This document shows, piece by piece, positions 1 through 30,542 of a stretch of 47,763 nucleotides of DNA. Every line of letters begins with the position of its first letter. Position 1 is the first letter of the stretch. Location of the stretch: contig JALGVA010000020.1 of NCBI GenBank assembly GCA_029820295.1, positions 1 through 47,763 of the forward strand, given 5' to 3'. The translations under genes and the position numbers were made by a program. Below the pieces are notes generated by a model, which was given only the letters and a program-made list of their open reading frames with translations, did not search any database and had not been told where the DNA came from. This stretch comes from Candidatus Zipacnadia bacterium (GTDB taxonomy: Bacteria > Armatimonadota > Zipacnadia > Zipacnadales > UBA5352).

Positions 1-902
1 AGCCGCGAGCTGAGGATAAAGCCGCCGTACTCGTGGACTGCCGTCTCAGCCTGCAGCACCGCCGCGTAGAGGTTATCGACGATCAGCTCGATCGAGGCGG
101 TGTAGGCCAGCTTCAGGCGCTCGGCAATGCCGTAGCTCTGCGTCGGCGGCGCGAAGCCGGTGGCCTGCAGGTCCTCGGGCGCATCGCGCTTGCTGAGCCA
201 CTCAACGTGGCCGTCCACGAAGGCGTAGTTCGCGCCATCGTTGTGTGGGAAGACCGGCTGCCCCGTGGGACCGACCTCGTAGAGCAGCACGGTGCCTTCG
301 GGATCGTCAATATCACTCAGGTCGCGCCCCGCCACCAGCGGGTTGATGGCGTAGTCCGGGCTGTCGTCCGGCATCTGCGCCGGACAGTGGAGGATCTCCT
401 CGTTCTGCACATACGGGAGGATATCGTCGTGCCAGGTCACGGCGCCGGGCAGCCGGCCGTCATGGTCCTGCGCGAACATTTGGATGCCGACCGCGAGCTG
501 CTTCATGTTGCTGCTGCATGAGGAGGTGCGCGCCTTCTCGCGGGATCGGGCGAACACCGGGAACAGGATGGCCGCCAGCACTGCCAGCATCCCGAACGCC
601 ACCATGACCTCGATGAGCCGCTGCCCACCGCTCACCCGCCGCTTTGCGCTGCGCTCCTCGGCCTGCGACTCCCGCGCCACGCGCCTCATCACGGCGTCGG
701 TCAGGTCCTCGGCGTCGTCATCGCCCAGGTAGGCGGCGCGGAAGGCCCGCTCGTCGGCGCGCACCTGCTCCAGCCACTCGCGGCAGCGCGGGCACTGGCC
801 CAGGTGCAGCCGGACCAGCATGCGCTCGAACAGCCCGCACTCGCAATCGGCATGCGCCGACACGCGCTCCATCCACTTCTCGCACGGCTGCGCGGCGGTC
901 AT
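1..902 (-). CDS. Anti-sigma factor (ZAS zinc finger) fused to pilin-like helix and H-X9-DG domain (3' end outside window)
   Basis: The frame is open for 300 codons from ATG 902 to the window edge; I read every codon across the domain junctions and found no stop or frameshift. Residues 1-45 form an anti-sigma zinc finger: Cys7, then H33-x3-C37-x2-C40. Residues 46-91 are a charged linker. Residues 93-118 (GQRLIEVMVAFG then a hydrophobic run and ILFPVFAR) look like a type IV prepilin N-terminus, but the usual Phe-Thr after the glycine is Gln-Arg, so processing is doubtful. A pilin-like periplasmic part follows, with H220-x9-D230-G231 (HNDGANYAFVDG). The ATG overlaps the sigma-factor stop as ATGA, so the two are probably translationally coupled. 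Topology fits a membrane anti-sigma factor: zinc finger in the cytoplasm, sensor outside. Domain calls are by motif; sensing by the pilin part is inferred. Confidence 0.88.
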   Translation of the reverse strand, partial: MTAAQPCEKWMERVSAHADCECGLFERMLVRLHLGQCPRCREWLEQVRADERAFRAAYLGDDDAEDLTDAVMRRVARESQAEERSAKRRVSGGQRLIEVMVAFGMLAVLAAILFPVFARSREKARTSSCSSNMKQLAVGIQMFAQDHDGRLPGAVTWHDDILPYVQNEEILHCPAQMPDDSPDYAINPLVAGRDLSDIDDPEGTVLLYEVGPTGQPVFPHNDGANYAFVDGHVEWLSKRDAPEDLQATGFAPPTQSYGIAERLKLAYTASIELIVDNLYAAVLQAETAVHEYGGFILSSR

Positions 903-1426
903 GAGCGCTCACCTGCCTGTCCGGCCTCGGCCATCAGCTCACGCAGGCGCCGCCGCGCCCGGCAGCAGCGCACGCGCACGTTGTTGACCGTCAGGTGCAT
1001 CTCCCGCGCGATCTCGGCGTAGGACATCTCGCCGATGTAGCGCGCCACCAGCATCTCGCGGTCCTTGAGCGGGAGCATGCGCAGCAGCTCCAGCGTGGGC
1101 CCGTCCTGCGGTTGCGGCGGGTCGATGCTGGGGAGGGGGGCGTCGTCGAGCGGGACGGTGTCGGTGTGCCGCTCGCGCAGGAAGGCGCGGGACTTGTTGC
1201 GCACGATGCCGACCAGCCAGCCGGCGAACTTCGCGGGCTCGCGCAGCGTATCCAGCGCGCGCCAGGCGTCCACCAGCGCATCCTGGGCGATGTCGCGCGC
1301 CGCCTCGCGGTCGCCGGTGAGATGGTGGGCCGCCGCCACCGCGGTGCGCTGGTGTCGCTGCACGAGCAGCGCATAGGCATCCGCGTTACCTGCCAGCACC
1401 TGTCTCACCACCTGGGCGTCAGTCAT
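899..1426 (-). CDS. ECF-type RNA polymerase sigma factor
   Basis: 175 aa, normal length for the extracytoplasmic-function sigma70 group. Region 2 spans about residues 15-85, including RDIAQDALVDAWRALDTL and the promoter-melting segment FAGWLVGIVRNKSRAFLRER. Region 4 is a helix-turn-helix at about 112-165 (PLKDREMLVARYIGEMSYAE, then IAREMHLTVNNVRVRCCRAR). It should direct core polymerase to a small regulon. The start ATG has GAGGG just upstream and lies 11 nt after a perfect 8-bp hairpin. The stop TGA overlaps the start of the anti-sigma gene (ATGA), the standard sigma/anti-sigma arrangement, so its activity is probably held by that partner. The target promoters cannot be read from the window. 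Confidence 0.95.
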   Translation of the reverse strand: MTDAQVVRQVLAGNADAYALLVQRHQRTAVAAAHHLTGDREAARDIAQDALVDAWRALDTLREPAKFAGWLVGIVRNKSRAFLRERHTDTVPLDDAPLPSIDPPQPQDGPTLELLRMLPLKDREMLVARYIGEMSYAEIAREMHLTVNNVRVRCCRARRRLRELMAEAGQAGERS

Positions 1427-1456: not shown

Positions 1457-1560
1457 CCTGTGACCGAGGGTGTCTGGGGTCATCTTTGAAGTGTGGCGGC
1501 GTGGCGCGATCGTTACGCGATTTCACGCGCGGGCCCGCGGAAACCTGCGCGCCAACGCAA

Positions 1561-1612: not shown

Positions 1613-2803
1613 CTACTTGCCGCTGTCGGCAGCCGCGGCCTGCGCGGGCGTACCGGACGGGTTCTCAGGCAACGTGGCGTTGTCGGGGGTGACCACGCTG
1701 ACGGCGCCGTCGGCGCTGACCACGATGTCGAATGGCCGCCACCAGCTCGGCGGCTGAACGGGGTAGGTCTCGCTGTCATCGGTCGTGAAGGTGTGCGGCC
1801 CGAAGGTGCGCACCAGCGAGTTAGCCGCCAGACCGCCGGTCACCACGCGCACGGTCACATGGTAGACGCTCTCCTCGTCGAGATCATAGCTGTTGATCGC
1901 GACGTGGAAGCGGCCGGGCACGAGTGTGCCATTGGTGAAGTTCTCGGGGCCGAAGCCCTCGGTGTCATCAACATCGAGCTGTCCGGCGTTGATCGCCATG
2001 TTCCAGAACGCGGAGTGTTCGTTGTCCGGCGCGGGCGACCAGACGTGCAGGTCGGGGTCGCTGGTGGACGTGTCCCAGCTCAGGGTCACACGGAAGTAGA
2101 AGTCGGAGCCCTGTGGCGGCGTCCACTCGACGTTGATCGGGTCGCTGATCACCGTGCACGCCGCGTTCGACGCCAGCACGCGGAAGACGTTCGTCCCCGG
2201 GTGCAGGAAGGCGAGGAAGTCGAAGGCGCGCGGCCCGGGGACGACCGCATCGGGCTGCATGTCGGTGAGGCCGGTCAGCGCCGGGTTGCCATCCTGGAAG
2301 ATGACCACGGTGTCGGCGTCGGTGTTGGTCACCGTCCCGGTGATGTGGACCGTGCCGGCGGTGTCATCGACCGTCCCGGCGGCCGCAGTAATGACCGGGC
2401 AGTCCGTGGGGTTGCCCTGAGTCGGCGTGTCCATCACGACGTCCTCCGTCTGGTTCTCGCCGGTCACGCTGATGATGCGGTACTCGGTGGCGTAGCCATC
2501 AGCCGCGACGGTCATGGCGTAGGTGCCCGGCGCCAGATCGGAGATGCAGAAGCGCCCGTTCTCGTCGGTCTCGATGCGCTCGACCGCCTCGCTGCCCTGC
2601 TGCACCCCGATGTAGACATAGGCGTCGGGAATCGGCACCTCATCGCCGGTCATGACGGTGCCGCACAACTGCCCCACGAGCACGTCCCCGTCCGGGGACG
2701 GGAGAGTCGGGCCGAAGCCACCGTCGCAGCCGGCGAGCATGACCAGGCCCGCAAGGACGGTGACTGCCGCGAGCCCGGCCGTGCTTCGTATCATCTGCTT
2801 CAT
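1613..2803 (-). CDS. Secreted lipoprotein with carboxypeptidase-regulatory-like and YfaP-like C-terminal domains
   Basis: 396 aa. A signal peptide ends in a lipobox (VMLAGC, Cys25), so it should be a membrane-anchored lipoprotein. Residues about 43-125 look like a carboxypeptidase regulatory/transthyretin-like sandwich (LCGTVMTGDEVPIPDAYVYI, then DENGRFCISDLAPGTYAMTV). A middle beta domain follows. The C-terminal third contains VTLSWDTSTSDPDLHVWSP and a later PGRFHVAINSY, resembling the YfaP/DUF2135 type of surface domain. The start has a strong AAGGAGGG site. It lies 30 nt after the outer-membrane-like gene on the same strand, so the two are likely co-transcribed. The ligand is unknown; an adhesive or structural envelope role is a guess. 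Confidence 0.85.
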   Translation of the reverse strand: MKQMIRSTAGLAAVTVLAGLVMLAGCDGGFGPTLPSPDGDVLVGQLCGTVMTGDEVPIPDAYVYIGVQQGSEAVERIETDENGRFCISDLAPGTYAMTVAADGYATEYRIISVTGENQTEDVVMDTPTQGNPTDCPVITAAAGTVDDTAGTVHITGTVTNTDADTVVIFQDGNPALTGLTDMQPDAVVPGPRAFDFLAFLHPGTNVFRVLASNAACTVISDPINVEWTPPQGSDFYFRVTLSWDTSTSDPDLHVWSPAPDNEHSAFWNMAINAGQLDVDDTEGFGPENFTNGTLVPGRFHVAINSYDLDEESVYHVTVRVVTGGLAANSLVRTFGPHTFTTDDSETYPVQPPSWWRPFDIVVSADGAVSVVTPDNATLPENPSGTPAQAAAADSGK

Positions 2804-2833: not shown

Positions 2834-3676
2834 CTACCAGGTACCACTGACGGACACGCCGCCCCCGACCGACTGGTCGGGCGTGGCGATGGACGAGGTC
2901 GCGGGGGTCGGGCCCGCGGCCGTGGTTGCGAACAGGTCGATCTGCCAGTCGCCAGAGCCGCCGATCATGTGACTGATGCCCGCCGACCAGGCCAACGCCT
3001 CGGTCACCTCGTTGGTGACCTCGTCGATGCTGTTGGTGCCCGACAGCGGATAGGCGGCGTCGGCGACCACGTCGGTGCGCTCACTGATCGGCCAGCGCAC
3101 GCCCGCACCGAGCATGAACACCTCGCCCCAACCCTCGACCGACCCGCCGCCGACCACTGACAGAGGATCATCGAACCAGATGTACTTCGGTTCGACCACG
3201 ACCGTGGCGTCGCCCACGATGCCGAACTCGACGGGCACCGACACAACCGGGATCGGTCCACTGCCCAACGCCGCGGATGTCGTGCTCAGGTTGGTGCCGC
3301 GTGGGTTGCCCAGCGGCAGGTCGGCGCCGCCGCGGACGGCGACCGCCGGGCTGCCCTCGTAGAGCAGCCACTTGAGATCGATCACGACCGCTTCGTAGTC
3401 GGACTGCCGGACGGCGCCGCCGATCGGGTCTTCGCCGGTCGTCTCCCAATCGAAGTAGCCGAACATCCCGTCCGCGCGCTCGCCATTGGCTCCGCGGAAG
3501 AACACGCCCCAGGTCTGATTATCCTCCTGGAAGAACCGCCCCTCCGCCCTGTACGCATCAGCCCCCTGCCATGGTGTGGCCGACGGCAGGTTCGGAGTGC
3601 CCATCTGTGCCCAGCTCGCTCCGGCGCTGAGAGCGAACAGGGCTATCACGACCGTCGCTACCAGGTTACGTTGCAT
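2834..3676 (-). CDS. Predicted outer-membrane beta-barrel protein
   Basis: 280 aa from ATG 3676, which has GAGGGAGG in the right place; the open frame continues far upstream but without coding character. A signal peptide ends near residue 24 (ALSAGASWAQ). The mature part alternates polar and hydrophobic residues in strands separated by short turns, with a repeated feel of channel or porin proteins (VSVPVEFGIVGDATVVVEPK, FMLGAGVRWPISERTDVVAD), and ends in an aromatic residue (VSVSGTW) as barrel proteins do. I cannot assign a named family. It is followed after 30 nt by the lipoprotein gene. If it is a barrel, the organism is diderm, in line with the Mla operon. Confidence 0.75.
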   Translation of the reverse strand: MQRNLVATVVIALFALSAGASWAQMGTPNLPSATPWQGADAYRAEGRFFQEDNQTWGVFFRGANGERADGMFGYFDWETTGEDPIGGAVRQSDYEAVVIDLKWLLYEGSPAVAVRGGADLPLGNPRGTNLSTTSAALGSGPIPVVSVPVEFGIVGDATVVVEPKYIWFDDPLSVVGGGSVEGWGEVFMLGAGVRWPISERTDVVADAAYPLSGTNSIDEVTNEVTEALAWSAGISHMIGGSGDWQIDLFATTAAGPTPATSSIATPDQSVGGGVSVSGTW

Positions 3677-3730
3677 GCTGCCTGCCTCCCTCGGGGCGTC
3701 CGTGTCTGCCCCACCTCCGCTGCATTCGCG

Positions 3731-3772
3731 CGGCACAATGGTGCCGTGGTGTTGTCGCCCCCGCTCACGGGG
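3731..3772 (-). terminator. Two short hairpins downstream of queH
   Basis: CGGCAC-AATG-GTGCCG at 3731-3746 and CCCCG-CTCA-CGGGG at 3759-3772 sit between the end of queH and the start of the beta-barrel gene. They could attenuate transcription between the two units. Neither is followed by a U-run, so this is weak. Confidence 0.3.
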
Positions 3773-3801
3773 CCATCGCGCGCCCCGCAGGCGCGCGTCG
3801 A

Positions 3802-4380
3802 TCATCCCCGGCGGCGGCCGACGCCCTCTCGTGCCGGCGCGCAGCCGCACCAGGTCTGGCGGTATATCCCCCACGCCCGGCTCAGCTCGACGCTCCGCCG
3901 GAAGCCGTCGCGCCGTTTGAAGTTCTCCGCCATGAACGCGATTCGATGGTCGCGGCAGACCTCCTGCCCAATCGCGTTGATTCGTTCGGCCGACTTGTGC
4001 GGGCTTACCGTCAGCGTGGTCGTCAGGACGCCGATGCCGCTCTCCTCCGCCCACCGTGCCACCCGCGCCAGCCGCATGCGGAAACACACGCTGCACCGGG
4101 CCCCACCCTCGGGCTCGTCCATCAGCCCCGCGCAGGCCTGAGCCCACGCCTCCGGGTCATGTTCCAGCTCCACCAGCGGCACGCCCGACAGCCCCGCGAC
4201 GCGTTGCATGCCCGCCAACCGCAGGTCGTGCTCTTCGACCGGGTCAATGTTTGGATTGTACCAGACCGTAATGACCTCGTAGTCCTCCACGAGACGCTCG
4301 ATGACCGCGCTCGCGCACGGCCCGCAGCACACATGCAACGCCAGGCGCGGGCGGTCGGGCCGGTCGCGCGCATCGATCAC
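3802..4380 (-). CDS. queH: Epoxyqueuosine reductase QueH
   Basis: 192 aa. Reduces epoxyqueuosine to queuosine in tRNA, the last step of queuosine synthesis; QueH is the QueG-unrelated (former DUF208) enzyme with an Fe-S cluster and an adjacent metal. The N-terminal LHVCCGPCAS, the pair CSVCFRMRL at about residue 96, and the C-terminal IYRQTWCGCAPAREG give the family's cysteine set, with W in place of the usual Y before CGC. The start is GTG and overlaps the stop of the upstream epimerase-like gene as GTGA, so the two should be translationally coupled. No other queuosine genes are nearby. Confidence 0.95.
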   Translation of the reverse strand: MIDARDRPDRPRLALHVCCGPCASAVIERLVEDYEVITVWYNPNIDPVEEHDLRLAGMQRVAGLSGVPLVELEHDPEAWAQACAGLMDEPEGGARCSVCFRMRLARVARWAEESGIGVLTTTLTVSPHKSAERINAIGQEVCRDHRIAFMAENFKRRDGFRRSVELSRAWGIYRQTWCGCAPAREGVGRRRG

Positions 4381-29919: not shown

Positions 29920-29999
29920 CGCGATTGACAGGGCACTGAGCGGGGCGTATGCTGGTGCTGGTCTCATCGTGTGCTATCCGACGCAGCGAGGTGGTCGCG

Positions 30000-30542
30000 A
30001 TGTTCAGATCACGCGGACGGCGCAGGGGCTTCACGGCGGCCGAGGTGCTGGCCGTCACCGGCATCCTCACCAGCCTGGGCGGCGGCTCCTTCGTCAACGT
30101 GACCGAACAGGCGCACCGCACCACCTGCCAGCAGCACCTGCACCAGATCGGGCTCGCCATCCAGATGCGCACCATGATGGACGAGCCGCTGCCGCGCGCG
30201 TGGTTCTACCCGCCCGATCCGCCCCACCCCAACCGCATGACCTACCATCTCGCGCGCGTGATGGCCAGCGAGGTGCCCGCGTCGATGTTCATCTGCCCCT
30301 CCGCGCCCTCGGCCATCCAGCAGCGCGGCATCTGCTACGTCTACAACAGCACCCTCGGCGGGAGAACCGTGGACCAGGTGCCCAACCCTTCGCAGACGTG
30401 GCTGATGATGGACATCAACGTGGTCAGCGACCAGGTGCCTCCGGCCCACAACGGCGGATGCAATGTACTGTTCGTGGACGGGCACGTCAAGTGGTACCCG
30501 GCCAGCCAGCTCCCGAAGTTCAACGTGGCGACGGACGGGTAG
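30000..30542 (+). CDS. Prepilin-like protein with H-X9-DG domain
   Basis: 180 aa from ATG 30000 (AGGTGG upstream). The basic leader (FRSRGRRRG) is followed by FTAAEVLAVTGILTSLGGGS: the Gly-Phe cleavage site and Glu5 of type IV pilins are kept, but the helix is shorter and more polar than usual. A pilin-type head follows, ending in HNGGCNVLFVDGHVKW with H-x9-D-G, the processing-associated motif seen in Armatimonadota and Planctomycetes. It should be inserted in the inner membrane with the head outside. Assembly into a pilus is not implied. Divergent from the amidase gene; no other pilus gene nearby. Confidence 0.85.
   Translation: MFRSRGRRRGFTAAEVLAVTGILTSLGGGSFVNVTEQAHRTTCQQHLHQIGLAIQMRTMMDEPLPRAWFYPPDPPHPNRMTYHLARVMASEVPASMFICPSAPSAIQQRGICYVYNSTLGGRTVDQVPNPSQTWLMMDINVVSDQVPPAHNGGCNVLFVDGHVKWYPASQLPKFNVATDG

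Follow-up and report, generated by a model that had tools for sequence, protein, structure and literature searches.

The window analysed here, a stretch of 47,763 nucleotides from Candidatus Zipacnadia bacterium, encodes an ECF sigma factor directly followed by a chimeric protein. Judging from its sequence, this protein would be a class I membrane-anchored anti-sigma factor, of which the anchor and part of the sensor derive from a pilin that has ceased to be processed. We assign this reading a probability of about 0.8.

The chimeric gene and its full-length product

The open reading frame at positions 3–902 (reverse strand) encodes 300 amino acid residues without interruption and runs off the start of the contig. 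As the window is the entire contig C248 of a 5.63-Mb genome in 331 contigs, the frame is truncated. Bases 1–114 of the window were identical to the last 114 bases of contig C320 (72679–72792) in the orientation expected for neighbours. This end overlap, which we regarded as the assembly joint, occurred only twice in the genome, at the start of the window and at the end of C320. When C248 and C320 were joined, a protein of 477 residues was obtained, a length that rests on the join inferred from the 114-base overlap; in other genomes, orthologues have the complete set of parts on one contig and in this order. The gene covers 1–902 of the window (reverse strand, N-terminal 300 residues) and continues on C320 down to position 72147. 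The part gained from C320 comprised DUF4349 (PF14257, 106.4 bits; cut-off, 27.7) and a C-terminal hydrophobic helix.

The order in the joined protein was a zinc anti-sigma domain, a pilin-type helix, an H-X9-DG head, DUF4349, and the C-terminal membrane helix. The zinc domain (ZAS/zf-HC2; PF13490, 26.9 bits; cut-off, 22.2) occupies residues 7–41 (780–884, reverse strand) and contains Cys7 and His33-x3-Cys37-x2-Cys40. The helix, recognised by a profile match and hydropathy, was located at residues 93–118 (549–626, reverse strand), with the degenerate site SGG^QRLIE and with Glu5 at residue 98. The head covers residues 121–237 (192–542, reverse strand), from the start of DUF1559 (PF07596, residues 121–152, 33.9 bits; cut-off, 23.3) to the end of H-X9-DG (TIGR04294, residues 219–237, 27.2 bits; cut-off, 19). 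His220, Asp230, Gly231, and His232 of the head were invariant in the family alignment. The first 37 residues of DUF4349 (264–300) are encoded at 3–113 (reverse strand, 19.6 bits), and the remainder from 72681 down to 72147 of C320 (reverse strand). Of the hydrophobic segments, the chimera has two, and on the side of each that is predicted to be cytoplasmic there are positive charges. The three elements that the sequence-only reading had placed in one frame, namely the zinc finger, the pilin helix, and the H-X9-DG head, were all recovered there by profile matches. The possibility that the protein is an ordinary pilin in which a zinc motif occurs by chance was considered and rejected.

Two origins in one chain and coupling to the sigma gene

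A family profile of the first 238 alignment positions was searched against the PDB sequences. Positions 8–81 matched RsiW (5wuq) with an E value of 8.5e-8, and positions 79–154 matched a Geobacter pilin (7tgg) with an E value of 4.8e-10. Together with the DUF1559 and H-X9-DG matches, the latter supports the pilin origin proposed earlier for the helix and the outer head. H33, C37, and C40 were invariant in the 11 aligned members; the G290 protein had lost both the zinc ligands and Glu5. Only one of the nine zf-HC2 proteins in the genome bears a pilin part, and the chimera scored below the cut-offs of the NCBIfam anti-sigma models. No credible match was obtained when PDB was searched with the DUF4349 profile, and a plasmid search gave no match. 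The structure of an orthologue (L115), predicted from a two-sequence alignment, had a mean pLDDT of 42.8, too low for the model to be of use.

The ECF sigma factor (899–1426, reverse strand; 175 residues) showed sigma70 region 2 (PF04542, 54.7 bits) and region 4 (PF08281, 57.1 bits). Its gene ends in ATGA, overlapping the ATG of the anti-sigma gene, so the coupling noticed in the sequence-only reading was confirmed. That reading had also asked whether every such pilin-headed protein follows an ECF gene. All 17 of the pilin-headed genes did, with a gap of −23 to +4 between the ECF stop and the anti-sigma start. The ECF factors beside them were 42–85% identical to that of the window in the aligned part. 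In the ECF tree, which was built without G229 and G046 (short sigma matches), they formed one clade including the ECF factors of two genomes with headless proteins (G029 and G038). This clade was separated by a 100/100 split from the ECF factors beside headless ZAS-DUF4349 proteins.

Cleavage site and membrane anchor

All 27 distinct pilin starts of the same genome read G^FTL[IV]E. Among the 15 family members, Gly-1 was found in three (G000, G006, and G229) and was absent from 12, several of which have Arg or Thr; Phe+1 was found in one (G022). Glu5 was retained in 14 of the 15. Hence, of the features by which pilins are recognised, the N-terminal helix with Glu5 (E98) is present in the chimera, and the short leader with G^F[T]xxE is replaced by a leader region of about 90 residues. 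TIGR02532 gave 37–40 bits on the pilins of the genome, no match on the chimera, and 14.5 bits on the G022 protein (cut-off, 16.3). PF07963 gave 11.5 bits on the chimera, below its cut-off of 21.2. Since the site is degenerate in the family and the cleavage-domain profile did not match, the pilin helix is best read as a permanent, unprocessed anchor. The earlier proposal that the altered site keeps the anchor in place is therefore upheld as to the degenerate motif and the loss of Gly-1 in most members, but needs qualification for this species, in which the site is G^QRLIE with Gly-1 present. Because Gly-1 is retained, slow cleavage may take place in this species, cutting off the zinc domain and freeing it with the sigma factor.

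It is also conceivable that the degenerate site still works as a switch, regulated cleavage by the prepilin peptidase freeing the zinc domain and bound sigma factor into the cytoplasm. The zinc domain takes the exact position of a prepilin leader and faces the cytoplasmic peptidase, of which the genome encodes one, at C53:23222-23617, and G006 and G229 keep Gly-1 as this species does. A conserved switch, however, ought to retain its site, and the loss of Gly-1 in 12 of the 15 members, the single Phe+1, and the missing profile match make this explanation improbable.

Distribution of the architecture and loss of its parts

Homologues were searched with the full protein, the DUF4349 part, and the N-terminal part in 41 genomes of the order and 291 genomes of the phylum. 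The full architecture (zinc domain, pilin helix, H-X9-DG head, DUF4349, and tail helix) was found in 15 proteins from at least 15 species (G000, G001, G006, G009, G012, G013, G022, G024, G028, G046, G229, G230, G231, G287, and G290). The G001 copy ends at a contig end inside the tail helix, the G009 copy is frameshifted in DUF4349, and the G028 copy has an N-run in the assembly. A contig scan with a single protein gave one orthologue (G012, GenBank JAUVVY010000018.1) and two distant Armatimonadota pilins.

Some members have fewer parts. The G289 gene and the second G290 gene encode the zinc domain, helix, and head without DUF4349. The G029 and G038 proteins have the zinc domain, helix, and DUF4349, with a Pro/Ala-rich stretch replacing the head; both species belong to the same order, and both proteins retain the pilin relic LFPVF. 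Of the 19 proteins in this ECF group, 17 have DUF4349, and the head is not universal either, so the pilin head is probably one sensor module and not the entire sensor. Accordingly, the earlier idea of a pseudopilin co-opted as an envelope sensor is supported as to the recruitment of an envelope-facing part, but is incomplete, as the protein also has DUF4349 and a C-terminal tail anchor. In the ECF tree, headless G029 was the sister of headed G024 of the same genus (100/99), and loss of the head in place is the best reading of this pair. As to the direction of the first fusion, parsimony on the ECF tree is insufficient by itself. In G058, a ZAS-DUF4349 protein (L110) beside a distant ECF factor had the degraded remnant of a pilin, AREKARQVVASADHRQIGLAQSSYTQDYD, and lacked H-X9-DG; it possibly represents an older or independent head loss.

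Companion heads and other fusions

Free-standing companion heads were found beside the sigma/anti-sigma pair at five loci. In G009 (L055), the anti-sigma gene is followed by three tandem heads, which have ordinary membrane helices; one head follows this gene in each of G046 and G287, and one precedes the sigma gene in each of G012 and G028. The companions lacked the cleavage motif, except that of G287. We constructed a tree of 75 heads including 42 ordinary pilins. Thirteen of the 15 anti-sigma heads, four of the seven companions, and the two heads of a G020 fusion gene were placed together (SH-aLRT 93), apart from the ordinary pilins, and the anti-sigma heads of G046 and G287 paired with their own companions elsewhere, in an open region of the tree. 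That anti-sigma and companion heads form a single clade was not rejected (p-AU 0.507), a value that is no proof of the clade. Most companions grouped with heads from the same locus or from a sister locus, as though they were copies of these.

H-X9-DG heads were also found fused to a zinc ribbon (L151) and, as two heads, in a multi-helix membrane protein (L152); in L156, we read the head as fused to a UBA-like N-terminus. Since heads occur both free-standing and in other membrane proteins, the H-X9-DG head is a mobile module, and its anti-sigma use is one conserved case. Separately, the window encodes a second atypical H-X9-DG protein (29949–30542, forward strand; 197 residues), which has GFTAAEVLAV against GFTLIELLVV and matched the chimera head weakly.

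The chimera might instead be a structural pilus subunit or an assembly factor, the cytoplasmic zinc domain of which ties pilin assembly to transcription only indirectly. In favour of this are the retained Glu5, pilin helix, and head, and the separate head genes beside the pair in G009, G012, G028, G046, and G287. DUF4349 and the second membrane helix after the head would, on the other hand, block packing into a pilus; furthermore, the cleavage site is lost, the gene always lies in an ECF operon, and the head is dispensable in G029 and G038. We judge a pilus subunit very unlikely, slightly more so than the cleavage switch. An assembly artefact or sequencing error fusing anti-sigma, pilin, and DUF4349 genes might be suspected because the window ends within the gene and the full protein depends on a contig-end overlap, but it has practically no chance, given that independent genomes (e.g. 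G006, G012, G013, G022, G024, and G287) have uninterrupted orthologues in which the order of all parts is the same. The same single-gene fusion in 14 other genomes excludes both sequencing error and chance fusion. The sequence-only reading had itself named a frameshift joining two genes, or homologues with the domains always in separate genes, as what would speak against it; both were tested in the other genomes, and neither held, the orthologues being uninterrupted and combining the domains in a single gene.

Candidate promoter motif and upstream genes

A candidate autoregulatory promoter motif, TCGYGTAAY-N18-CACTYYA, was located at 1487–1520 (reverse strand), about 60 bases before the ECF start. 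Each of the four genomes examined contained a single exact copy, in every case ahead of the orthologous ECF gene. Because the motif had been derived from those very upstream regions, only its absence elsewhere is informative. The expectation for the window was 0.05 at up to two mismatches. A control pattern, the motif read backwards, gave more two-mismatch matches than the motif itself; hence, only exact copies carry weight. Their single occurrence in each of the four genomes suggests that the sigma operon is autoregulated. A one-mismatch copy (L192, G000:C44:3883-3916), which we treat as a lead only, was found 60 bases before a 480-residue frame, the start of which resembles a signal peptide.

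Upstream of the sigma gene, 1613–2803 (reverse strand) encodes a lipoprotein that contains a carboxypeptidase-regulatory-like domain (48 bits), and a frame starting MQRNLVATV within 2834–4147 (reverse strand) encodes a secreted protein with GT(P/A)NLPSATPWQ. Similar-looking lipoprotein and secreted-protein genes were observed at the same place in G001, and the secreted-protein gene also in G006. The two proteins are possible envelope partners or targets.

Relation to known proteins

Like the class I zinc anti-sigma factors (ASDI/ZAS; RsiW, RsrA, and ChrR), the chimera has Hx3Cx2C, matches RsiW, and lies directly after an ECF gene. A membrane anchor is present in about 65% of class I zinc anti-sigma factors (PMC7406223), and the chimera is likewise predicted to be anchored. 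It differs from them in that the anchor helix and the first outer domain are pilin-derived and are followed by DUF4349 and a second helix. With type IV pilins and pseudopilins carrying DUF1559 and H-X9-DG, it shares the helix LFPVFAR.REKAR, Glu5, the head, and H-X9-DG; unlike these, it has a cytoplasmic domain of about 90 residues for the short leader, a degenerate site, and no free C-terminus of the head. As in DUF4349 proteins (PF14257), the domain scored above the cut-off and a C-terminal membrane tail is present. One DUF4349 protein in the literature (PMC10924467), which is exported and a candidate for tail anchoring, uses a lipobox-containing signal peptide to enter the membrane, whereas the chimera would enter it through the ZAS domain and the pilin helix and head. 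In other families of the phylum, there are ZAS-TM-DUF4349 proteins (L106, L108, L109, and L113) that share the zinc domain, helix, DUF4349, and tail helix with the chimera, and an ECF gene directly upstream was confirmed for L106, L109, and L113. They differ in lacking the head and in their distant ECF factors (24–26% identity).

Searches of the literature on DUF4349 or pilins with anti-sigma factors, H-X9-DG, and DUF1559, in which subscription journals were scarcely covered, found no description of this architecture. Among papers on H-X9-DG pilins, we found none giving a function.

Proposed mechanism and implications

In the mechanism we propose, the class I zinc (ASDI-type) protein would hold the ECF sigma factor at the inner membrane, with the pilin helix, no longer processed by the prepilin peptidase, as the inner anchor. 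The pilin head (H-X9-DG) and then DUF4349 would lie outside the membrane, and the second helix would return the C-terminus to the cytoplasm. A change outside would be the signal: the head or DUF4349 may be bound, or Glu5, which is kept, may bring the protein into contact with pilin subunits. In RsiW, the sigma factor is released through regulated proteolysis. Release would probably occur in the same manner here, or by a shift of the helix; the genome has site-2 protease homologues. The freed sigma factor might then act at the conserved upstream motif to activate the operon that encodes it. Binding of ECF sigma factors by ASDI domains is known, and perception of the stimulus is attributed to the outer domains (PMC7406223). 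As the head can be lost, as in G029 and G038, it is inessential to this scheme.

A further, rather doubtful extension is that the pair reads the pilin pool: the unprocessed helix with Glu5 would contact mature pilins or the local free heads, and a change in this contact would free the sigma factor. If this were true, a pilus subunit would have become a transcriptional receptor, and heads would have been shed from the receptor gene as partner proteins. Genomes of this kind have dozens of H-X9-DG pilin copies (DUF1559 gave 61 matches in this one), and a conserved anti-sigma chimera offers a genetic handle on them through a testable sigma regulon and signal. The pilin head would serve here as an exchangeable module of the sensor, which a single operon lineage has lost and apparently also shed.
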